Part shown: piece by piece, positions 3,579 to 44,743 of the stretch | Numbering within the stretch: the first letter of the stretch is position 1 | How the letters are laid out: every line of letters starts with the position of its first letter | Assembly (NCBI GenBank): GCA_041447175.1 | Contig: CP166960.1 | Span: 1,628,519 to 1,692,518 of the forward strand | Source: Candidatus Bathyarchaeia archaeon | GTDB lineage: Archaea > Thermoproteota > Bathyarchaeia > Bathyarchaeales > Bathycorpusculaceae | Direction of reading: 5' to 3' | DNA length: 64,000 bases | Program-made: the position numbers and the translations under genes | Notes under the pieces: generated by a model | What the model saw: only the letters and a program-made list of their open reading frames with translations | What the model was told of the DNA's origin: nothing | Database searches by the model: none

Positions 3579-4544
3579 TTATTCAGGAACCTCTATGGAG
3601 TCAACTTTGCCGTCGCCGTCTAAGTCGTAGCCCTGAATAACCGCCGCAAAATTCTCCTCACCGTGATAGGCATGCAGGGTTTTTTTCCAGAAATTAGTCA
3701 ACGCCAAAACGCAGGCTTTGGTGCCAACTGCCTTGTTTCCCGCTAAAACGATGACGCGTTTGCTGCTGTCCCACGGATTGGGAATATTGGCAATTAACCC
3801 AGCTACGTCTGCGGTGTAGACCAAACCCGTTTTTTGGGAAACTAAACCGCCAAACAAGTAGCCCTGCGCCGTTGATTGCATGTTAAACCGAATCGGCAGA
3901 TGCTCATTGAGTTCCTGAGTTATCAAATTCGTGCCTGGACCGCCCACCAGAAGAAGATTATTTCGTTCTTCTTTCTCAGCCTTCACATCCACGTCCAGTT
4001 TTATGGCGAAATCCTCAGGCATCTTCACAAACTGCCCCAAAAAAAACGTCAAATGCGCCGCATAATGTCCGTCTCGGGCGCTGGTTTTAAAGGGTCCATG
4101 CGGGGTGGGGCTGCCAACCACAATTTTTCCATCAAAAGCGCCGTCAGCGGTAAGGAAACCCGCAAAGAAGTCTTGGATTTGCTGACTTACTGCCAAAAGG
4201 GAAGGGCGCTGCATGGGTTTGTAGCCGTTGGAGAATTCGATGCCAAACGCAGGGGAAACTGTGCGGTAGTATTTGGCGATGGCGCCCTTCTTTTTTTCTT
4301 CCCGCTCTACAAAAATGACCCCTGATCGCTCCAGTTTACGGATATGGTAGTAGATTTTTTGTTCGTGCATGCCCAGTGCGCGGGCAACTTGCATGGGGTA
4401 CATGGCTTTTTCGTTGAGCAAGGTGAGGATGTTCCAGCTGAGGCTGCTTAGGACGAGTTTGAGGTCGCGGGGGTTTTGCATGACGGCGATTTCTTTGACT
4501 TGCTGCTGGGCGCCAGATTCTTTGAGGAGCAGTTTCTTGTCCAT
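3579..4544 (-). CDS. Winged-helix protein with S-layer-like domain and EF-hand loop
   Basis: The 321-residue protein combines parts not usually seen together. Residues about 25-100 form an ArsR-like winged helix (SWNILTLLNEKAMYPMQVAR, then HEQKIYYHIRKLERSGVI). Residues about 120-300 resemble the archaeal S-layer-like C-terminal region: GKIVVGSPTPHGPF, LLLVGGPGTNLITQELNEH, and VIVLAGNKAVGTKACVLAL. The end carries an EF-hand-type loop, DLDGDGKVDSIE. There is no signal peptide or membrane helix, so it should be cytosolic. I use the ATG at 4544 rather than a TTG one codon earlier. It precedes DUF371 with no gap. It is probably a transcription regulator with a ligand- or calcium-binding domain; the S-layer assignment is by motif memory. 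Confidence 0.65.
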   Translation of the reverse strand: MDKKLLLKESGAQQQVKEIAVMQNPRDLKLVLSSLSWNILTLLNEKAMYPMQVARALGMHEQKIYYHIRKLERSGVIFVEREEKKKGAIAKYYRTVSPAFGIEFSNGYKPMQRPSLLAVSQQIQDFFAGFLTADGAFDGKIVVGSPTPHGPFKTSARDGHYAAHLTFFLGQFVKMPEDFAIKLDVDVKAEKEERNNLLLVGGPGTNLITQELNEHLPIRFNMQSTAQGYLFGGLVSQKTGLVYTADVAGLIANIPNPWDSSKRVIVLAGNKAVGTKACVLALTNFWKKTLHAYHGEENFAAVIQGYDLDGDGKVDSIEVPE

Positions 4545-4736
4545 CAAGATTCATCTGAGCATATACCAAGTATAACTGTTATAAAAAATTTTTTCATAGT
4601 ACGCATCGTGTAAGATGAAACATAAAAGACCACATAAAACACATAAAATCAAGACAGCAGTAAAACTGCATTAGTGGCAATTGACTTTTTTTGATAATAA
4701 AAGTTAAGAGTTGCTTGATTCATTAACAACGTGTGA

Positions 4737-5036
4737 GTGGTGGCAACAGTAGTGCAGACAAAAACGGAGCACCCTTATGTTGAAGTTAACCCAAAAGTTT
4801 GCAATGGCGCCCCAGTTATAACTGGGACACGTTTGAGAGTAGTGGATATTGTTGTAGAGTATGAGTACATGAGCGTCACTCCAGACGACATCATAAACGC
4901 GCACCCGCACCTTAGACTAGAACAAATTCACGATGCCTTATCATACTATTATGAACATAGAACAGAAGTGGACAACAGAATAAAAGAGGACAAACAATTC
5001 ATTCAGAAACTTTACAGAAGCACAAAAGGCAGATGA
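4737..5036 (+). CDS. DUF433 antitoxin-like protein
   Basis: A 99-residue DUF433 protein. The signature is HPYVEVNPKVCNGAPVITGT, then RLRVVDIVVEYEYMSVTPDDI and LEQIHDALSYYYEHR. The family has a small helix-turn-helix-like fold and is commonly the antitoxin partner of PIN-like DUF5615 proteins, as here. The start is one of two adjacent GTG codons (4737 or 4740). The gap upstream is AT-rich, with a TATA-like GATAATAAAAG about 40 bases before the start. The partner toxin frame follows directly. Confidence 0.8.
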   Translation: MVATVVQTKTEHPYVEVNPKVCNGAPVITGTRLRVVDIVVEYEYMSVTPDDIINAHPHLRLEQIHDALSYYYEHRTEVDNRIKEDKQFIQKLYRSTKGR

Positions 5037-5070
5037 CCTAATCATTTCGCCAAAAAGTCTAAAGATTTAC

Positions 5071-5379
5071 TTGGACGAAAGCGTAAACGTCGCAGTTGCT
5101 GAAGGACTAAAGAGAAGGGGGATAGTAGCTTTTTCCGCCAAAGACCTTGGCAAACTCGGCATGACTGATGAAGAGCAGTTAAAAACGGCCATCCAAATTG
5201 AGGCAGTGATTTTCACTCATGACACAGATTTTCTAAGAATGGCTATTGATAAGGAACATTTTGGAATAATCTATGTGCATCAACAGAAACTTTCAGTCGG
5301 TGAATGTATATCCAAACTTAAAGTCATAGCCGAGATGACAAAACAACACGAAATGAAAAACAGAATAATTTTTCTTTAG
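5071..5379 (+). CDS. DUF5615 PIN-like toxin of the DUF433 pair
   Basis: A PIN-like nuclease-family protein of the DUF5615 type. The conserved acidic positions are visible: LDESVN at the start, AKDLGKLGMTDEEQL in the middle, and FTHDTDFLRMA with the following HFGIIYVHQQ. Such proteins are the proposed toxins paired with DUF433. Family members normally begin with KIYLDE. Here the matching residues lie in frame upstream of the first standard start codon (TTG at 5071), at 5062-5070. Translation may therefore begin at a non-standard codon such as ATT, or be coupled to the antitoxin, or the protein may be slightly short. Confidence 0.75.
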   Translation: MDESVNVAVAEGLKRRGIVAFSAKDLGKLGMTDEEQLKTAIQIEAVIFTHDTDFLRMAIDKEHFGIIYVHQQKLSVGECISKLKVIAEMTKQHEMKNRIIFL

Positions 5380-5441
5380 TCCAGCAAAATATATCGATTT
5401 TCCTCTTTTTACAAAGTTAACTGTCCTCACTTCTCTGCGAC

Positions 5442-5460
5442 CCTAAAAAAATTTTTTAGG
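5442..5460. terminator. Perfect A/T-rich palindrome, candidate terminator
   Basis: A perfect inverted repeat, CCTAAAAAA / TTTTTTAGG, has 9-base arms around a single central A. It lies 63 bases past the toxin stop and 150 bases before glmS. It reads the same on both strands and supplies an oligo-T tract to a rightward transcript, which is the usual archaeal termination signal. It could equally be a protein-binding site. Confidence 0.4.
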
Positions 5461-5609
5461 TTCCTACTTTAAAACACGTAACCCAACCAGCTATCCCCAT
5501 CAGACCCTTATAAGAATTCTTGTATGTGTTAACGTTTATGCTAAAAATGCTTATAACCGCTCAGAAGCCAATAAAAACTGAATATGTTCAAGGGAGCAAG
5601 TATGTTCAT

Positions 5610-7442
5610 ATGTGCGGAATTTTCGGATGCATCACAAAAGACCAACCCGCGGCGCCCATCATCCATGCGTCGCTGAAACGACTTGAATACCGCGGATACG
5701 ACTCCGTCGGCATCGCCACCATAAACAACGGCGAAGTCGCCATCAAAAAAGACCAAGGAAAAATTGACGAAGTCCACAAACTAATCAACCTCGACGACAT
5801 GCAAGGAACCGTCGGCATCGGGCACACCCGCTGGGCAACCCACGGCGCCCCCCTCAAAGTCAACGCTCACCCCCACACCGACTGCACTGGACAAATTGCC
5901 GTCGTCCACAACGGCATCATAGAAAACTACAACGAACTCAAAGCCGAACTAGAAAACCACGGCCACGTCTTCCATTCAAGAACCGACACCGAAGTCATTC
6001 CGCACCTCATCGAAGAAACCCTCACAAAAAACCCCACCCTAAGCCTCACTGAAGCTGTCGTGGAAACCATCAAAAGACTCAACGGCGCCTACGCGCTTGC
6101 CGTCATTTCCTCTAAGGAACCCGACAAAATCATCTGCGCTCGAAACGAAAGCCCGCTGGTTGTAGGGGTAAATTCTGAGGCGACCTATTGTGCGTCGGAT
6201 TTGACGGCGTTTTTGCCCATGACCAACAAAGCCGTTATGATTAACGACGGCGAACTGGTCATTCTTACACCGGGCAGCTATGAGATTCGCCGCCTCCAAG
6301 ACGGTTCAATTGTCACTCGAGAACCCAAAATCATTGACTGGACACCCGAAATGGCAGTCAAACAGGGATATCCACATTTCATGATTAAAGAAATCCATGA
6401 GCAACCCGAAACCCTGCGCAACACGTTGCGGGCGCAGGAGCACTATTTGGATTTAATTTCAACGTTTCTGGACCGCGCCAACGAAGTTTTCTTGGTCGCC
6501 TGCGGAACCAGCTACCACGCCTGCCTAGCCGCCTCGTACATGTTCTCTAAACTAGCGTTTCTGCCCTCCTACCCCGTTTACGCGTCGGAGTTTGTGGAGC
6601 AGCACGGCAAATCCGTCAACATCGACAGCACCATCCTCGCCGTCAGCCAGTCAGGAGAAACCGCCGACACCCTTGGCGCCGTCACCTGCAGCCAGCAACG
6701 CGCCGCAACCATCCTCGGCTTAACCAACACCATCGGCTCCACCCTCACAAGGGTCAGCCGCGTCTACATTGGGCAACAGTCAGGTCCCGAAATCGGCGTC
6801 GCCGCCACCAAAACCTTCACCTCACAACTGTCAGTTCTTGCGCAGCTGGCATTTGAGTTGGGAAACCGCCGTGGAAAAGTTTCACAGGACGAAATGGATT
6901 TTATAGCAGAAAAACTGGACCAGCTCCCGCAGACGGTGGAAGCTATAATTCTTACGCAGGAAGACAAAGTTAAGCAGCTTGCCAAAAAGTATCGAGACGC
7001 AGAAATCTTCTTTTTCTTGGGCAGGGGCATAAACACCGCCACCGCCTACGAAGGCAGACTTAAACTTATGGAAATTGCCTACGTGCCATCCATTGCGTTT
7101 CCGGCTGGCGAGAGTAAACATGGACCCATAAGCCTCATCGAACCCGGGTTCCCCGTCGTTTTCATTTGCCCAAGTGATGGTCAAACTCACAAGACACTCA
7201 TCGGCAACATACAGGAAATGAAAGCCCGCGGCGCCAGCATAATCAGCATTGTCGAGGAAGGCGACGAAGAAATCAAGGCGATGTCAGATGACTACGTTGA
7301 AGTCCCCAAGGGCATTCCAGAGGTGTTGTCGCCGATTCCGTTTGTGATTCCGCTACAGTTATTGGCTTACTATATGGCAGTTGAGAAGGGGCTTAACCCA
7401 GATACTCCGCGGAACTTAGCCAAATCTGTCACAGTCAAGTGA
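5610..7442 (+). CDS. glmS: Glutamine-fructose-6-phosphate aminotransferase (isomerizing)
   Basis: GlmS makes glucosamine-6-phosphate from fructose-6-phosphate and glutamine, the first step to UDP-GlcNAc. The start is fixed by chemistry: the nucleophilic Cys must become residue 1, so translation begins at the ATG at 5610 (MCGIFGCIT), although the frame is open 30 codons further upstream. The amidotransferase half shows GYDSVGIAT, GHTRWATHGAP and HNGIIENY. Two SIS domains follow, with VACGTSYHACLAAS, AVSQSGETADTL, and FPAGESKHGPISLIE. The end NPDTPRNLAKSVTVK is the family's conserved C-terminus. Length is normal (610 aa). It stands alone, about 16 kb from glmM-glmU. Confidence 0.95.
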   Translation: MCGIFGCITKDQPAAPIIHASLKRLEYRGYDSVGIATINNGEVAIKKDQGKIDEVHKLINLDDMQGTVGIGHTRWATHGAPLKVNAHPHTDCTGQIAVVHNGIIENYNELKAELENHGHVFHSRTDTEVIPHLIEETLTKNPTLSLTEAVVETIKRLNGAYALAVISSKEPDKIICARNESPLVVGVNSEATYCASDLTAFLPMTNKAVMINDGELVILTPGSYEIRRLQDGSIVTREPKIIDWTPEMAVKQGYPHFMIKEIHEQPETLRNTLRAQEHYLDLISTFLDRANEVFLVACGTSYHACLAASYMFSKLAFLPSYPVYASEFVEQHGKSVNIDSTILAVSQSGETADTLGAVTCSQQRAATILGLTNTIGSTLTRVSRVYIGQQSGPEIGVAATKTFTSQLSVLAQLAFELGNRRGKVSQDEMDFIAEKLDQLPQTVEAIILTQEDKVKQLAKKYRDAEIFFFLGRGINTATAYEGRLKLMEIAYVPSIAFPAGESKHGPISLIEPGFPVVFICPSDGQTHKTLIGNIQEMKARGASIISIVEEGDEEIKAMSDDYVEVPKGIPEVLSPIPFVIPLQLLAYYMAVEKGLNPDTPRNLAKSVTVK

Positions 7443-7453
7443 CACCCTCCCCC

Positions 7454-7476
7454 TTGTTTTGTTTGTTTTTGTTTTT
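7454..7476 (+). terminator. Oligo-T terminator after glmS
   Basis: Starting 12 bases after the glmS stop, the coding strand is a run of T tracts separated by single G residues (TTGTTTTG, TTTGTTTTTG, TTTTT). Successive U tracts are the standard termination signal for archaeal RNA polymerase. No hairpin is present. Confidence 0.55.
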
Positions 7477-7520
7477 AAATCCATACATATTAAAAAGGAT
7501 AAACGGCACACCTATACGCG

Positions 7521-8210
7521 GTGTCAGTTTTGGAGAAGGACAACTGGGGAAAACTAATAGAGGGACTTATCAAGCAGGGCACGTTAAAGTCGCCCAGTGT
7601 AATCAACGCCCTCCAGCAGGTTCCTCGAGTGAAGTTCCTCACAAAAGAAGGACAAAAATATGCTGCGGTAGACACGCCTATGCAAATTGGGTTTGGGCAA
7701 TCGGTTTCTGCACCCCACATGGTAGCGATTATGAATGAAGCCCTGCAGCTTGAGGTGGGGTCAAAGGTTTTAGAGGTTGGTGCAGGTTCAGGGTGGCACG
7801 CCGCAACGATAGCAGAGGTGGTGGCACCCAAGTTTGCGCCTCGAAGCGAGTGGGGCCACATCTACACAGTGGAAGTCATCGCCTCATTAGCTGAGATGGC
7901 GCGCAAAAACATCATAAACACCGGTTACGGTGACCGCGTAACCATCATAAATGGCGACGGCGGCAAAGGCTACCCCGAAAAAGCGCCTTACGACCGCATA
8001 CTGGTCACTGCCGCAGCCCCACAAATCCCCACCCCACTAATAGACCAGTTGAAAAGCGGGGGCATAATGCTGGTTCCCGTGGGCAGCCCGTTCTTGTTCC
8101 AAAAACTAGTTAAAGTCACCAAGCAAGTTGACGGAAAAATCGTTGAGGAAAACCTCGGCGGAGTTTCGTTTGTGCCGTTGACCGGCGAATTTGGCCACAA
8201 AATGGGTTAA
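7521..8210 (+). CDS. pcm: Protein-L-isoaspartate O-methyltransferase
   Basis: The enzyme methylates L-isoaspartyl residues in aged proteins so they can revert to aspartate. The 229-residue sequence has the family markers: DTPMQIGFGQSVSAPHMVA, SAM motif I VLEVGAGSGWHAATIAE, the acidic ribose-binding region IYTVEVI, and ILVTAAAPQIPTPLIDQL. The GTG at 7521 is the only sensible start and gives the usual N-terminus before the PRVKFLT segment. It is convergent with the flap endonuclease gene, and the stops overlap by 4 bases. Confidence 0.92.
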   Translation: MSVLEKDNWGKLIEGLIKQGTLKSPSVINALQQVPRVKFLTKEGQKYAAVDTPMQIGFGQSVSAPHMVAIMNEALQLEVGSKVLEVGAGSGWHAATIAEVVAPKFAPRSEWGHIYTVEVIASLAEMARKNIINTGYGDRVTIINGDGGKGYPEKAPYDRILVTAAAPQIPTPLIDQLKSGGIMLVPVGSPFLFQKLVKVTKQVDGKIVEENLGGVSFVPLTGEFGHKMG

Positions 8211-9241
8211 CCAAACCATTTCTCCAGCGTCGTTTTGCCCTTCTGTTTTGCCGCGCCTGCCTGCATCTTCTCCACAGCTTTGCGGACGCGGTCCTCGGAG
8301 AAATCTTTTTCCCGCACCAAAAAGTCCACGATGCCTTCGACGTCGGGGTCATGCCACTCCACCGTAAAGTCGTCGGATACTTGGGGGTGGAGAAAGATTT
8401 CTCGGATTTCCTCGGGGGGATGGGGGAAGGCGGCGTTTTTGATGTGGGGCAACGCGTTTTCTAAGGTTCCGTGTTGCTTGATGAGTTTAATCGCGGTTTT
8501 AGGTCCCAACCCGCGGATGCCATCAGGGTTAAAGTCTGTGCCGATGAGAATGCCTACATCAACAAGCTGTTCTTGGGTTATGTCCATCTCTTTGAGGGCA
8601 TCTTTGAGGGATATGGTTTCGGGCACAATGTCTATGTAGACGTTTTTGCTGGGCAGCTTGCGGCGTCCCGAAATAGTCACGTTCCGCAGCAGCAGAGGTG
8701 TGCCAAAGAGCAGGCTGTCATAGTCTTGGCTGGCACAGTAATCCGCAGCACCCTTACGCGCCATGTACGAGGCTTGAGCTTCACCTTCGCTGGGCGCCCT
8801 AAGCCACGGCAACCCCATCAAATCCAGCAGGCGTTGGCTGTCGGTCTTCATGTAGTCCTTCATGGTGGTGGTTGCCTGCGCAAACGTCCGCATCTTGGCG
8901 GTGTCGCCTTCTGCAGCGGCTTTTTCGTAGTGAACTTGGGCTTGAGCTTTGATTTGTTTACGCCGCTCAATCTCTTCCCGCTTAAACTTGGGTGGAGCAC
9001 CATCAAAGACGTAAATGGGTTTAATGCCCAACTCAACGAGGTTGCTGGTGCGGTAAAATAAGCCGCTAAGGTGGCTGGTAACTTTGCCAGTGCTGTCCAT
9101 GAGGGGGGTGCCGTCAGGTTGGCGGATGATGCTGAGGAACTGATAGATGGCGTTAAAGGCATCTATGGCCACGGTTTTTCCTGCTAAATCTTCGAGTTTA
9201 ACCACGGTTTTTGGTACGATGTCACGTAAGTTTACGCCCAA
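8207..9241 (-). CDS. fen: Flap endonuclease FEN-1
   Basis: FEN-1 removes 5' flaps during Okazaki fragment maturation and repair. Catalytic acidic residues are visible in order: AIDAFNAIYQFL, YVFDGAPPKFK, SEGEAQASYMARKG, CASQDYDSLLFG and ILIGTDFNPDG. The helix-hairpin-helix region follows (IRGLGPKTAIKLIKQHG). The C-terminus QKGKTTLEKWFG is a PCNA-interacting (PIP) box. I place the start at the TTG at 9241, giving MGVNLRDIVPK, because Gly2 of FEN-1 enzymes sits in the active site. A GTG three codons upstream would add Met-Gln-Val and bury it. Confidence 0.92.
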   Translation of the reverse strand: MGVNLRDIVPKTVVKLEDLAGKTVAIDAFNAIYQFLSIIRQPDGTPLMDSTGKVTSHLSGLFYRTSNLVELGIKPIYVFDGAPPKFKREEIERRKQIKAQAQVHYEKAAAEGDTAKMRTFAQATTTMKDYMKTDSQRLLDLMGLPWLRAPSEGEAQASYMARKGAADYCASQDYDSLLFGTPLLLRNVTISGRRKLPSKNVYIDIVPETISLKDALKEMDITQEQLVDVGILIGTDFNPDGIRGLGPKTAIKLIKQHGTLENALPHIKNAAFPHPPEEIREIFLHPQVSDDFTVEWHDPDVEGIVDFLVREKDFSEDRVRKAVEKMQAGAAKQKGKTTLEKWFG

Positions 9242-9436
9242 AACTTGCACCCGTCAACATATTACAAAAAACAAGTTAAATAACTTGCGAAACACCCAAA
9301 CCGTCGATGCCAGGAAAGGACATGAAATTTTCGATGAGCCTGTAGGTGTTAATGTGTATCCACATACCCTTAAACGAGCACCCACCCTTCAGTTCACACA
9401 TCTTTTGCTCAATCAAACAAGTGGAGGTGATGTTAC

Positions 9437-9736
9437 GTGAGGTTTATGCTCATCGTCCACATGCCCACCCAAGCCGGAAACGACCTGCTCCGAGGCGGCA
9501 TAAAACCAATAGAGGACCTCCTTGCCGCAGTGAAACCCGAAGCCGCATACTTTGGCGAGCACTACGGCGAAAGAACCTTCTTTTTGGTGGTTGATTTGCC
9601 CTCCGCCGACGCCATCCCCCGCGTCTCCGAACCCCTCTTCAACATGGGCGCCCGCGTCGAATTTCACATAGCCATGGTTATAGATGACCTAAAGAAAGCG
9701 TTTCAGAACAAACCCCAAATAAGCGCCCCCATATAA
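9437..9736 (+). CDS. Small alpha/beta-barrel-like protein (DUF3303-like)
   Basis: A 99-residue protein beginning MRFMLIVHMP, with ERTFFLVVDLPSADAI and GARVEFHIAMVID. This strand/helix pattern resembles the dimeric ferredoxin-like fold of DUF3303 and related proteins. The start is well supported: a strong Shine-Dalgarno GGAGGTGA (9423-9430) lies 6 bases before the GTG at 9437. No catalytic residues can be named. The fold assignment is by pattern resemblance only. Confidence 0.65.
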   Translation: MRFMLIVHMPTQAGNDLLRGGIKPIEDLLAAVKPEAAYFGEHYGERTFFLVVDLPSADAIPRVSEPLFNMGARVEFHIAMVIDDLKKAFQNKPQISAPI

Positions 9737-9872
9737 CAGCAGCCAACTAACGTTTAGCAACGGTTTGTCAACAACTGTGTAGTCAATGGAACTTTGTCAA
9801 TAAATTTTGACAAAACATTCTAATACAAAAATCAATAAAACCGCAGCCCGCCAAGTTTAGGTGGGAATGCCA

Positions 9873-11957
9873 ATGAAGAAAACACGCCAAAATGCATTCT
9901 TGATATTTGTTATTGGAGGACTCGTTTTCTTTGGCAGCTTACGCCTTGACACGGCACAAACTGGGGTAATAACCATAATCGGCTCAGACACCACATGGAC
10001 CAAAACAAACAGCCCCTACACCCTCACTGGACCAATAGTCGTAAACGAGGGCATAACGTTAACGGTGGAAGCGGGAGTCACCGTGAACCTCAACAACTAC
10101 TACCTATACTTGAACGGCACCCTCAAAGCAATTGGCAACCCAAACGACAGGATTCAATTCTTGGGTGGAGAAATCACTTTTGGAAGCAACCCAGAAGGCA
10201 CCTCTTCTACATTCGAATACGCGGTGATTAATGCCTCAGTATCAAGTAGCCGACCACTTGTACTGGAGAATAATGTGGTTTACCGCCAAGTTACTGCTGG
10301 AGACACCTCAACATTCATGTATAACATCATTTCAGGGGACATCAAAGCTGGAAGTTCAACTACAATTTCTTACAACAACATAACAGGAGCCATTTCTGTG
10401 GGAGACGCCTGCGTGATTTTCAACAACACGATTGGAGGAGACACGTCGACAGGAAAACTCTCCAAAGTTATGAACAACATTATGCAGGCAAGCGTCCTTT
10501 CTACGAATCCGTCAACTGCATTAACCGTTGGTGCCTCATCCGAAGTCAAGAATAACACCATCACAGGTGGACTCGCAGCCACTTCTTCAACAATATCAAA
10601 CAACACTATCTCTGGTGGTTTTCCCTTTACCGATTGGAGCATGGTTAGAGTAACGGATTCTACCTCTGCAGTTATGGTTGATGGGAACTCCACTGTCGCC
10701 TCAAATACAATCTTCAGTACCCGAGGGTACGGGATTCTGGTCAAGGAGGGGTATACAAAGATTTCTGGGAACACTGTAAGTCAAGGCATCAGGGTCGCTG
10801 GTGACGCATTGATAGAGAATAATCTAATCATCAACAGCGGAACGGGAATAAGAGTTGGCGAAATATACGTCCCTGCCTTCTACGAAGCCGATTACGGCAA
10901 CGGCGACTCCGTAATTCGGAATAACATCATCACTAACTGTACCACGGGCATCGGAAGCACACAGGGCGGTGGCACATCAAAAATTGAAAGAAATCTCATA
11001 GCGAATAACATCAACGGCATACTGGTCAACTCAGAGGTAACCATTCAAAACAACACACTTTCCAACAACACCGTCGGCATCGAGTTAAACAAGTGGACCC
11101 GCGAAATAATTTTCAACAACATCGTAAACAATAGCCAGAACGGCATCGTCCTAAAGGACGTATCCAAGGATGTTAATTCGACTTACAACTGGTGGGGAAC
11201 CACCGATATGCAAACAATTAACTTCTCGATACACGATTTCAAGTACAACTTTAACTTGGGCACAGTCAGTTTTGTTCCCTTCTTAACAGAGACAAACCTA
11301 CAAGCCACACCTACCCCCGAAGACGCATTACCCACACCTCTTGAGCCCACCAACCCAACTCCTACGGCAATAACAGTCTCGGTTTCTCCGCCTGCGGCTC
11401 CTATGGGAACATCAGTGACCATAACAGGCACAGCCACAGGAACGAAGGGAATGGAAATAGCAGTGACTACAATTGATCCAAACGGAAATTTCCAAACCAT
11501 CGGCAATTTGCCTCCTCAGCCAGACGGTTCGTACAAGGTCAGTTGGATTCCACCCCTTGAAGGCACCTACACAATTATTGCTGCCCTTGATGCTACAGGG
11601 GTGAAAGCAACCACGAACCTAACCATAACTCACGTAGAATCCAACTCAACACCCACAGCTACTTCGACCCATTCAATCGGGCCTTCTTCAACCGAAACCC
11701 CGACCCAAACCACGCCGCCAACGCCCCAAACGTCCCCGACCGCAGCAGCAAACAATCAGCTAACCACGCAGAGTACGCCCCAAGTAAGCGTCGCTCCAGA
11801 GACCACCCAAACAGGTGGTCAAACAGAGGGGCAACCGCCGCCGTCTGATGCAACGGCAACGGTAACTATCGTGGTAGCAGTAGCCGCAATTGTGGCTGTA
11901 CTTATGATTCTGGCGGTTATGCTCAAAAGAACCAGCCCAGCCAATGCAGCCAGCTAA
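9873..11957 (+). CDS. Secreted right-handed beta-helix surface protein, membrane anchored
   Basis: A large surface protein of about 694 residues. It has a signal peptide (KKTRQNAFLIFVIGGLVFF). Residues about 40-470 are an Asn-rich parallel beta-helix built from units such as IENNLIINSGTGIRVGE and IQNNTLSNNTVGIELN. An Ig-like domain follows at about 500-600 (VSPPAAPMGTSVTITGTATG). A Thr/Pro/Ser-rich stalk leads to a C-terminal membrane helix (TIVVAVAAIVAVLMILAVML) with a short basic tail. Such helices often bind polysaccharide. Three start codons lie in frame; I favour the ATG at 9873, 8 bases after an AGGTGG Shine-Dalgarno. It heads a run of three surface-protein genes. Confidence 0.8.
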   Translation: MKKTRQNAFLIFVIGGLVFFGSLRLDTAQTGVITIIGSDTTWTKTNSPYTLTGPIVVNEGITLTVEAGVTVNLNNYYLYLNGTLKAIGNPNDRIQFLGGEITFGSNPEGTSSTFEYAVINASVSSSRPLVLENNVVYRQVTAGDTSTFMYNIISGDIKAGSSTTISYNNITGAISVGDACVIFNNTIGGDTSTGKLSKVMNNIMQASVLSTNPSTALTVGASSEVKNNTITGGLAATSSTISNNTISGGFPFTDWSMVRVTDSTSAVMVDGNSTVASNTIFSTRGYGILVKEGYTKISGNTVSQGIRVAGDALIENNLIINSGTGIRVGEIYVPAFYEADYGNGDSVIRNNIITNCTTGIGSTQGGGTSKIERNLIANNINGILVNSEVTIQNNTLSNNTVGIELNKWTREIIFNNIVNNSQNGIVLKDVSKDVNSTYNWWGTTDMQTINFSIHDFKYNFNLGTVSFVPFLTETNLQATPTPEDALPTPLEPTNPTPTAITVSVSPPAAPMGTSVTITGTATGTKGMEIAVTTIDPNGNFQTIGNLPPQPDGSYKVSWIPPLEGTYTIIAALDATGVKATTNLTITHVESNSTPTATSTHSIGPSSTETPTQTTPPTPQTSPTAAANNQLTTQSTPQVSVAPETTQTGGQTEGQPPPSDATATVTIVVAVAAIVAVLMILAVMLKRTSPANAAS

Positions 11958-12162
11958 AGCAGCCAACCTATTTGCCGTCTATTAGCATCCAAATAACAAT
12001 TCGATGCAGAACCTATAGAGGGGCAGAGGTCTCTCTGATTCTTACTTCGCTAACGTCATTTTCGTGTAGATAATTTTGGGAACAGAACTTTTTCTTTACA
12101 CAAGAAACCTTTACAATCAGGCTTTTAAGCCACCTCTCTTGTTTAATAAAATGTTGGTCACC

Positions 12163-13153
12163 ATGGGAATCAAAAGCAACCAAACAAGAATAATTGTGTG
12201 GTTCATGCTTGCAATTCTCACTTGGGTGTTTGCTGCTAATTTGGCATACGCAAATCCCCTTCCGCCTCCGCCTGAAAGCTTGCCCACCATTTTAATCAAC
12301 GCCGACGGCAACGTAACACCTCCAACTGACGTAATTGAACGGGATGGCGATGTGTATTATCTAACTCGCGACGTTTTCCAGGAATACACACTGAAAGTTA
12401 ATTGCAGCAACATAGTACTTGATGGAATGAATCATTTGATTGATGGTGCAGGCGCAGGTAGCAATGGCGTTATGTTAACCAGCGTTGCCAACGTCACCAT
12501 CAGGAATTTGCGGCTAAAGGATTTCTATTTTGAGGGACTATCGCTTTTCAACTCTTCAAAATGCACCATAACTGCAGTTAACACACTTGACACCAAATAC
12601 AGGCATTAAACTCAGTGACAGCTGCAATAACACCATAACTGCGAACCAAATAACCAACAACAAACAGTTAAACGGCAGCTCGGGTATCGTGTTTGGTTCT
12701 TCGTATGTGCTTGGCGGAGCCTATCAAAACAGCATCTTTGGCAATAACATAACGGGACTACACTACGTTTTTAGGGTGGAGGGCAACTCTAGCGGCAACA
12801 GCGTTTACGCCAACAATTTTCTAAATTACTCCCAGCCAATGCTTTCAACCACCGACAAGCACATGATGAACTTTTGGGACAACGGCGCCGTGGGCAACTA
12901 CTGGAGCACCTACGACGGGGCAGATGCTAACCAAGACGGAATCGGCAACACCCCGTACATGTTAGATTTGCACGATAAGGACAATTTCCCCCTGATGGTT
13001 CCCGCAAACGCTTCCTCAGCGTCCTCTGCATCAGCAACAACTCCAGAGGTATCGTCTGCGTTGACAACTTCTGAATTTACTCCTGCAGTGGGTGTGGCGT
13101 TGATAGTGATTGTCGTTGTGTTGTGTCTGCTTTTCAGAAAGGAGGTTGTGTGA
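12163..13153 (+). pseudogene. NosD-like beta-helix surface protein, broken by a frameshift
   Basis: Two consecutive frames make one protein when joined. The first (12163 to TAA at 12607) has a signal peptide ending near NLAYANP, then DGDVYYLTRDVFQEY and IVLDGMNHLIDGAG, typical of NosD-like beta-helix proteins. The second continues in the next frame from about 12587 (NTGIKLSDSCNNTITANQ). It ends with NFWDNGAVGNYWSTYDGAD, NQDGIGNTPYMLD, a Ser/Ala stalk, TSEFTP, a membrane helix and RKEVV. The shift lies between about 12560 and 12600 and equals one extra base or two missing bases. It may be a real mutation or a sequencing or assembly error. Both halves are otherwise intact. Confidence 0.75.
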
Positions 13154-13240
13154 CTTCGCCAAAACTGAAGTGAAAAGTTTTTTGTACACAAATTTTCTTT
13201 ACAAACACCCTTTTTAGTTGAGTTGACTTAGAGTGAATCG

Positions 13241-14659
13241 GTGGTGGCTGTGGGTAACAAATCCGTCATAGGGGTTTTATCGACGCATCATGAACGGTTA
13301 TTGTTTTCAGGCAGTCTACTTCTCGTTTTGTGCGTTTTTATTTCAGTCAATTCGGCTAATGCATCTTTGGCGATGTTTAGCCGAACATATGGAGGAACAG
13401 AAACAGACGTGGCTAATTGCATAATCGAAACATCCGACGGAGGATATGCCATAACTGGTTACACATACTCTTTTGGCGCTGGAGGGGAGGATTTCTGGTT
13501 AGTTAAAACAAACGCTAACGGAAATGTAGAGTGGAATCAAACATACGGAGGACCATTAGATGACCAAGCATACTCCGTAGTTAAAACCTCTGATGGGGGA
13601 TACGCCTTAGCTGGCTACACAAGGTCTTCTGGTGCTCCAGGGATTGCGTGGTTAGTTAAAACTGATGCAAGCGGAAACATGCAATGGAACCGAACGTATG
13701 ATGAAACAAAAGAGAAAGAGATTGGCGCCTTGATTGAAACCTCTGATGGGAGCTTTGTGATAGCAGGAAACCACTGGGGGATGAGTTATAGAGTTTTTGA
13801 TTTGTGGCTGCTTAAAACTGATGCCGAGGGGAATGAAATCTGGCAAAAAACTTATGGTGAGTCAATAATGGAATTCGTGCGTTCTGTGGTTGAGACGTCT
13901 GATGGAGGATATGCAATAGCAGGTTGTACTGGTTCGGGGTCAAATGATTTCTGGTTAGTTAAAACAGACGGTGATGGAAATGTGGAGTGGAACCAAACAT
14001 ACGGAGCCATAAAAGAATACCCTAATTCAGCAGTAAAAATTGAGCAAGCTTATTCTCTGGTTGAGACCTCTGATGGGGGCTTTGCTTTGGCGGGATTAAC
14101 AGATTCTTTTGGTGCTGGAGAGGACGATTTTTGGTTAGTTAAAACTGATGCAGAGGGGAATATGGAGTGGAACCAAACATATGGAGGAGTCAAAGATGAC
14201 CAAGCTTATTCTGTGGTTGAAACGTCTGAGGGGGGTTATGCTTTAGCGGGTCGAACGAAGTCGTTTGGCGCGGGCGGGCTTGATTTTTGGTTTGTTAAAA
14301 CGGACGCAAACGGAAATATAGAATGGAACAGAACGTATGGAGGGGCAGAGGCAGACTACGCTAAGTGTGTTATTGAGACCACAGACGGAGGATACGCCAT
14401 AGCAGGATATACATCATCTTTTGGTGCCGGGAAGGGAGACTTTTGGCTAATCAAAACCGACACGGAAGGCAACTACACTCCAGAATCCTTGCCATCACCT
14501 TCAACAACAGAAAGCCCATCTCCAACCGCCTCACCATCACCATCAATTCCCGAATTCACACCCTCAGCCGCCTTAGCGGTGACAGGTACAGTTTGCGTTA
14601 TAGCCTTCATCTGGAAAAAAGCCGCAAAGCAACTTCAGAAGCAGAACAACGCCGACTAA
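13241..14659 (+). CDS. Secreted seven-repeat propeller-like surface protein
   Basis: After a signal peptide (LLFSGSLLLVLCVFISVNSANAS) the protein carries seven tandem units of about 55-60 residues. Each contains ETSDGGYAIAG, a loop with SFGAG, DFWLVKTDAEGN, and MEWNQTYGG. Seven copies strongly suggest a seven-bladed beta-propeller exposed outside the cell. The end is a Ser/Pro/Thr stalk, then SIPEFTPSAALAVTG, a membrane helix and a Lys-rich tail. A paralogue with the same number of repeats lies at 44859-46259. The start is one of two adjacent GTG codons. The ligand is unknown. Confidence 0.82.
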   Translation: MVAVGNKSVIGVLSTHHERLLFSGSLLLVLCVFISVNSANASLAMFSRTYGGTETDVANCIIETSDGGYAITGYTYSFGAGGEDFWLVKTNANGNVEWNQTYGGPLDDQAYSVVKTSDGGYALAGYTRSSGAPGIAWLVKTDASGNMQWNRTYDETKEKEIGALIETSDGSFVIAGNHWGMSYRVFDLWLLKTDAEGNEIWQKTYGESIMEFVRSVVETSDGGYAIAGCTGSGSNDFWLVKTDGDGNVEWNQTYGAIKEYPNSAVKIEQAYSLVETSDGGFALAGLTDSFGAGEDDFWLVKTDAEGNMEWNQTYGGVKDDQAYSVVETSEGGYALAGRTKSFGAGGLDFWFVKTDANGNIEWNRTYGGAEADYAKCVIETTDGGYAIAGYTSSFGAGKGDFWLIKTDTEGNYTPESLPSPSTTESPSPTASPSPSIPEFTPSAALAVTGTVCVIAFIWKKAAKQLQKQNNAD

Positions 14660-14795: not shown

Positions 14796-14868
14796 GACAC
14801 GCACGCATAGGCCAAACTTTTTCGCGAACACTTTTCCGTAAGTTCATCAAATATCGCTCAGATACCAC
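14796..14868 (-). repeat. 23S processing stem, 3' (trailer) arm
   Basis: This arm is complementary over most of its 73 bases to 17891-17963. The best paired blocks on the plus strand are CAGATACCAC (14859-14868) against GTGGTATCTG (17891-17900), the CGTAAG/TTCATCAAA region in the middle, and CACGCATAGGCC against GGCCTATGCGTG at the outer end. Such long inverted repeats around archaeal rRNA genes form the stem cut by the splicing endonuclease. Confidence 0.8.
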
Positions 14869-14875
14869 CGAGGAC

Positions 14876-17880
<3,005 letters not shown>

Positions 17881-17890
17881 CCGAGCCTTA

Positions 17891-17963
17891 GTGGTATCTG
17901 TTTGGCGTTTGATGAAACCTTACGTTATGTGTTGCGCGTCGCTTTTGGCCTATGCGTGGTGTC
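17891..17963 (-). repeat. 23S processing stem, 5' (leader) arm
   Basis: The partner of 14796-14868: the leader side of the long imperfect inverted repeat enclosing the 23S gene. Both arms are 73 bases long and end in the same outer block (GGCCTATGCGTG, followed by GTGTC), so the fold is symmetrical. It implies that the transcript is processed as a unit containing only the 23S. Confidence 0.8.
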
Positions 17964-44188: not shown

Positions 44189-44743
44189 ATGACCCAAAAA
44201 GAAACCCCCATCCAAACCCCCGAGTTCAACGCAAAAAGCCTCCTCACCAACAAAGGCGTCAAAGTCACCGACCAAAGCAGCATTGACTCGCTAAGCCAAC
44301 GAGGCTACGGCACATCCGACGCAGAAGGCTTCACACTGACATTTTATGAAGCGCTCTTTTTGCAGGAAAAGGGAATGCTGGAAGTTGAAGACAAAAAAGG
44401 CAGCCAACTTGACTTCCAAAGCCTTCTGCAAGCTTACGAGGCAGCCGACGAGAACGCATGGATGCATTACCTTGTTTACCGTGACCTGCGCAGCCGCGGC
44501 TACGTGGTGCGTGAGGGGTTTGGGGCGGCGATTGATTTTCGCATTTACGAGCGGGGCAGCTACGGCAAAGGCGCCGCCACCTCACTGGTGCTAAGCACGC
44601 AGGAAGGCAAACCCCTGTCCATGGAGGACTTGACCAACGCGTCGGTGCAGACGCAGAGCCTCAAAAAGGAAATGGTGCTGGCGGTTATGAATCGACGGGG
44701 CGAAATAGTCTACTACTCCGTGTCGCCACTGACTTTCAGGTAG
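44189..44743 (+). CDS. endA: tRNA-splicing endonuclease EndA-family subunit lacking catalytic His
   Basis: An EndA-type protein of 184 residues with an N-terminal domain (FTLTFYEALFLQEKGMLEVE) and a C-terminal nuclease-fold domain. Of the catalytic Tyr-His-Lys triad, Tyr is kept in DFRIYERGSYG and Lys in QTQSLKKEMVLAV. The position of the His (family motif EHSxYLV) reads GAATSLV, so His appears to be replaced by Ala. This matches the structural (non-catalytic) subunit of alpha2-beta2 type archaeal splicing endonucleases. A second, active subunit should be encoded elsewhere. The gene is alone on its strand, ahead of a surface protein. Confidence 0.82.
   Translation: MTQKETPIQTPEFNAKSLLTNKGVKVTDQSSIDSLSQRGYGTSDAEGFTLTFYEALFLQEKGMLEVEDKKGSQLDFQSLLQAYEAADENAWMHYLVYRDLRSRGYVVREGFGAAIDFRIYERGSYGKGAATSLVLSTQEGKPLSMEDLTNASVQTQSLKKEMVLAVMNRRGEIVYYSVSPLTFR

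Follow-up and report, generated by a model that had tools for sequence, protein, structure and literature searches.

The window, a 64-kb stretch of a Bathyarchaeia genome, encodes an EndA-family protein that, judging from its sequence, very probably serves as beta, the structural subunit, in a tRNA-splicing endonuclease of the (alpha-beta)2 type. The gene for the proposed catalytic (alpha) partner, which carries the Tyr-His-Lys triad and the Crenarchaea-specific loop, lies elsewhere in the same genome. The window gene and the codons at its three catalytic columns are as follows:

44189..44743, + strand: gene for the EndA structural (beta-type) subunit, assigned from PF01974, PF02778, a 1a79 match and an AlphaFold2 model
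44546..44548, + strand: codon for Tyr120, which shares an alignment column with the catalytic Tyr and is invariant in a 12-row alignment
44573..44575, + strand: codon of Ala129, at the catalytic His column of the alignment
44663..44665, + strand: codon for Lys159, which shares an alignment column with the catalytic Lys and is invariant in the same 12-row alignment

The open frame starts with ATG and encodes 184 amino acids. Its product matches two Pfam families, PF01974 (tRNA_int_endo) at E 2.3e-20, scoring 72.9 bits where the cut-off is 27, and PF02778, which covers the N-terminal domain, at E 1.7e-13. With both EndA domains present, it is a full-length EndA. Residues 18-179 match Methanocaldococcus jannaschii EndA 1a79 (phmmer, E 9.8e-26), which together with the Pfam scores places family membership far beyond chance. 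An AlphaFold2 model built with 35 aligned sequences as input (pLDDT 88.4, pTM 0.84) has a predicted fold closest to 1a79_A (VIA-align Z 24.0, rmsd 2.4, 169 residues), followed in the fold list by EndA-family chains from Sulfolobus tokodaii, Aeropyrum pernix, human and Pyrobaculum aerophilum. Holliday-junction resolvases, found in the same list at Z 8-10, were rejected as functional relatives, the similarity being that of a shared nuclease core.

Two of the three catalytic residues are retained. The Tyr column reads FRLYERG in 1a79 and FRIYERG in the window protein (Y120), and the Lys column SVRKK and SLKKE (K159), whereas at the His column KEHSVYLV of 1a79 is matched by KGAATSLV, with Ala (A129) in place of His. 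The sequence-only reading had proposed exactly this, namely that Tyr and Lys were kept and the catalytic His lost, and had called for alignment to structurally known EndA proteins; that alignment confirms it, with Ala129 rather than His in the catalytic column.

The same reading predicted a second EndA with an intact Tyr-His-Lys triad, which was found as the sole further PF01974 match in the genome. The genome is a single contig of 2,733,033 bases (97% complete) and contains exactly two such matches, the window gene and C1:1395823-1396080. The latter belongs to a gene for a protein of 190 amino acids (L001:1213-1785, genome C1:1395535-1396107) about 277 kb from the window gene. Its protein, 28% identical to the window protein, contains VYKYGPGVEHAPYMV and TTVRKR and keeps the whole triad (FAVYKYG, GVEHAPY and TVRKR). 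It also carries an insert, YGKPLGIAKPKIPEF, that is missing from the window protein and holds the Crenarchaea-specific loop motif YGKPLGIAKPK, its Lys included; the window beta has no such motif. The loop is typical of crenarchaeal members of the family, and in A. pernix its Lys has been linked to broad specificity (PMC6379350, PMC12397907).

This arrangement resembles that of the known (alpha-beta)2 enzymes of A. pernix (3P1Z/3AJV), P. aerophilum (2ZYZ) and S. tokodaii (alpha, 2CV8), which likewise come from a pair of paralogues: one carries Tyr-His-Lys together with the Crenarchaea-specific loop, and the other has no His. The S. tokodaii loop, YGKPIGISKPK, is nearly identical to that of the Bathyarchaeia alpha. 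The beta subunits differ: the window beta has both EndA domains, whereas that of P. aerophilum is described in part of PMC6379350 as having no N-terminal domain. The window beta is closest in sequence to the M. jannaschii enzyme. In a profile search it is nearer to that enzyme (E 1.2e-37) than to the structural subunits of A. pernix or P. aerophilum (E 0.00024), and orthology with the crenarchaeal beta is therefore not established, a point against the proposed assignment. The alpha4 homotetramer of M. jannaschii (1A79) shares the fold and length of the window subunit and, like it, has no Crenarchaea-specific loop, but it has the His that the window subunit does not, and the present genome holds a second, catalytic gene. 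An alpha4 enzyme, which needs the triad in every subunit, was rejected given the Ala at the His column. Fused alpha'2 and epsilon2 forms were rejected since both proteins, of 184 and 190 amino acids, are single EndA units rather than fusions of two or three. Methanopyrus kandleri also pairs a structural unit, an EndA-like protein, with a catalytic EndA (5X89), and is the second-best phmmer match and the best profile match of the window protein. As described in part of PMC6379350, however, the M. kandleri enzyme has no Crenarchaea-specific loop and a constrained broad specificity, whereas the Bathyarchaeia alpha has the loop. A literature search for splicing endonuclease and Bathyarchaeia found, in the portions of the papers it covered, none on the Bathyarchaeia enzyme in itself.

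The two-gene pattern is widespread. A PF01974 match occurs in 148 of 151 genomes of the class (two matches in 110, one in 34, three in 4 and none in 3) and in all 121 genomes of a phylum-wide draw, set to at least 90% completeness by the search (two in 106, one in 14, three in 1); both tallies are hand counts from the result tables. A window-type protein is present in 131 of the 151 class genomes, and in 84 of the 87 with at least 90% completeness and at most 5% contamination. In one congeneric genome (G034; 95% complete, 160 contigs) only the alpha gene is seen, which counts against the two-gene model.

The residues separate the two types cleanly across 160 distinct sequences. All 51 alpha-type sequences have Y-H-K (30 best-scoring loci, 20 chosen ones and the source genome's own, hence not a random sample), and none of the 109 beta-type sequences has the His (30 plus 80 loci from genomes with a window-type match, less one identical row). 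Beta-type sequences keep Tyr in 98 cases and Lys in 92, and their His column is occupied by Ala, Pro, Thr, Ser, Val, Met or Gln (Thr or Ser in 43) or is gapped (22). Among the best 80 of 193 named relatives, mostly titled Candidatus Bathyarchaeota, His is again absent from the column, which reads Thr in 60, Ser in 10, Ala in 5, Val in 4 and Pro in 1. The search patterns that retrieved these relatives all leave out the His column, but one of them covers Tyr, so Tyr retention in this set is partly selected. Every alpha-type row carries the Crenarchaea-specific loop motif (48 of the 52 with KPK or KPR, the other 4 with RPK or RPT) and none of the 110 beta-type rows does, the source genome's own alpha and beta each being counted twice in these totals. 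With His kept in every alpha and in no beta among the sequences compared, the alpha/beta split is evidently old and fixed.

By analogy with the characterised (alpha-beta)2 enzymes, alpha and beta would assemble into a tetramer with two copies of each. Alpha is proposed to cut RNA at the bulge-helix-bulge (BHB) and at relaxed motifs using Tyr-His-Lys in RNase A-like chemistry, and beta to keep the fold and the interfaces by which the two active sites are positioned. Because its His is gone, beta would be unable to finish the reaction by itself. Likely substrates are tRNA introns at standard and other positions, with the 23S rRNA processing stem a probable further one.

Beta-type sequences keep Tyr and Lys to an extent that a purely structural role does not obviously call for, and this counts against the structural assignment. 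It might mean that beta pairs with alpha but mainly binds substrate through its Tyr/Lys remnant, which would make it a specificity subunit instead of a passive scaffold. We regard this as unlikely, though worth considering: both residues are conserved without the His, but they could be kept for fold stability, and deeper branches of the class lose the His segment (the gapped sequences above) and sometimes the Tyr. On an equally tentative footing, we speculate that the remnant of the Bathyarchaeia beta, with Thr or Ser common in place of His, has been kept since it binds RNA and helps to accept unusually placed introns. If true, the remnant would be a pseudo-active site under selection and not a passive relic.

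The same conservation could suggest that the window protein is itself active as a nuclease that dispenses with the canonical His and uses Tyr, Lys and the Thr or Ser that usually lies nearby, whether alone or at a second kind of active site. Of the 109 beta-type sequences, 43 do have Thr or Ser at the His column, as do 70 of the best 80 of 193 named relatives. Thr and Ser, however, are not general bases like His; the column varies freely, to the point of being a gap in 22 of 109 sequences, and is Ala in the window protein; and the genome has a sister gene that keeps the full triad. We consider such activity very improbable. Scarcely credible is a decaying, functionless extra copy, to which the loss of one catalytic residue might point: the frame is open, the protein shares 35-73% identity with 34 relatives and 19 invariant columns over the 35 sequences, and the gene's occurrence in 84 of 87 high-quality class genomes contradicts decay. 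A structural beta role in an (alpha-beta)2 enzyme remains the best explanation.

The sequence-only reading further suggested that the intron and BHB range of the enzyme may be broad, which the loop in alpha and tRNA insertions, some apparently outside the anticodon loop, support indirectly. Introns or intron-like insertions occur in at least eight tRNA genes of the source genome, and in four of these the place is apparently non-standard (both figures rest partly on reading by eye). Introns lie at the standard place in Ser(CGA), Ser(GGA) and Leu(CAA) (ARAGORN). In Rfam alignments the variable region of a CAT tRNA holds an insert of 30 nt, and Trp(CCA) and Tyr(GTA), whose anticodons were read by eye, hold long ones. 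Provisionally, also by eye, the Tyr gene seems to have two introns, and D-loop inserts seem to be present in Leu(TAA) and Arg(CCT). A BHB search of the tRNA genes gave a clean canonical 3-4-3 motif in Leu(CAA) and a 3-4-2 motif in the CAT tRNA, and no convincing splice sites in the remaining intron-bearing genes. Two further ARAGORN calls, a Leu(tag) with a 1003-nt intron (L038) and a Phe(aaa) (L204), were judged spurious. As set out in part of PMC6379350, (alpha-beta)2 enzymes cleave introns outside position 37/38 with relaxed motifs, and the tRNA intron set fits such a broad substrate range by association.

Several other tRNA-related features of the genome were noted. Leu(TAA) and Arg(CCT), both in L204 (genome C1:1720000-1723500), fall below the gathering score of the Rfam tRNA model, apparently because of their D-loop inserts. 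The 3' half of tRNA-Arg(CCT) is repeated about 9.2 kb from the full gene (L218, L204; C1 about 1711127 and 1720336), and that of tRNA-Leu(CAA) about 5.6 kb from its full gene (L211, L207; C1 about 507735 and 502147); these repeats look like attachment sites of integrated elements. Two tRNA-Sec genes lie outside the window (L205:1501-1587 and L206:1365-1451; RF01852, 69.7 and 68.0 bits), one adjoining SepSecS and the other near a selenium-metabolism-type LysR gene (250.4 bits, cut-off 250). A selenocysteine locus, also outside the window (L364, genome C1:2502000-2521000, at 4071-13449), encodes SepSecS (TIGR03531, 474 bits), a 732-aa PSTK-SelB fusion and an hdrA-like frame that continues across two in-frame TGA codons (DCSI-U-IEGP and FMCNW-U-GYAGAD). 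SepSecS scores above its cut-off in 2 of 101 class genomes. Selenocysteine in Bathyarchaeia was dismissed as a novelty: it is absent from the portion of PMC11227280 consulted, yet its use, together with the PSTK-SelB fusion, is already reported for Bathyarchaeota in part of PMC9499178.

The window also contains a 23S rRNA gene, the sole rRNA gene found there by Rfam, and it therefore stands outside a local 16S-23S-5S operon; a 5S gene is located elsewhere (C1 about 858875-858994, L213:539-658). The features relevant to its processing are:

14871..17887, - strand: 23S rRNA gene, a possible second substrate context (Rfam RF02540, 2812.9 bits)
17893..17908, - strand: 5' strand of a BHB-like element in the predicted fold (central helix CGCC, bulge AAA)
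14843..14866, - strand: 3' strand of the same predicted element (AGCG, bulge ATA)

The predicted pairing of the gene's flanks has an energy of -99.0 kcal/mol, whereas 200 shuffles average -43.0 +/- 4.7. Within the stem, a 3-bp CGC/GCG central helix, extended by one C-A juxtaposition, is adjoined by another helix and by AAA and ATA bulges. This element was read from the predicted fold after a strict scan and is thus a post-hoc reading. The strict 3-4-3 BHB scan of the window's 23S flanks did not pick it up, and gave one match, out of stem register, against 1.4 expected from shuffles. Splicing endonucleases cut two bases into each bulge, and by this rule cleavage at the BHB-like element would make the 23S some 32 nt longer than the Rfam prediction.

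Parts of the element recur in relatives. Strong 23S stems are present at all seven loci compared, the window's included, each below the lowest of 50 shuffles, although the predicted duplex of one of them (L335) has no central helix. CGC[CT]AAAC occurs in 14 of 20 5' flanks tested, and the strict G[AG]CGA[AT] in 10 of 15 3' flanks, the other five, the window's among them, reading GAGCGAT by eye; both patterns were written after seeing seven flanks and miss 6 of 20 and 5 of 15, respectively. Strict-scan matches at two of the seven loci (L332, L333) were not counted as support, and looser settings for the window's own 23S flanks, which gave many matches and had no control, were set aside. Part of PMC12918454 describes circular 23S rRNA with canonical BHB motifs in all archaea studied, Bathyarchaeia included, EndA in all circularised and near-complete genomes of its survey, and a circular Methanosarcina acetivorans 23S 33 bp longer than predicted. 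The earlier suggestion that this enzyme type would also cut the 23S stem is plausible in view of the stem, the recurring BHB-like parts and that survey, with the strict scan at chance level.

The same alpha/beta pairing is usual among relatives, and the window gene is therefore an ordinary one: splicing endonucleases of crenarchaeal type, encoded by two genes, are standard in Bathyarchaeia. The finding opens no long-standing question, but it is useful for annotation and offers a partner pair for structural work. It provides a clean case of divided labour following duplication, the His being always in one copy and never in the other among the 160 sequences compared.
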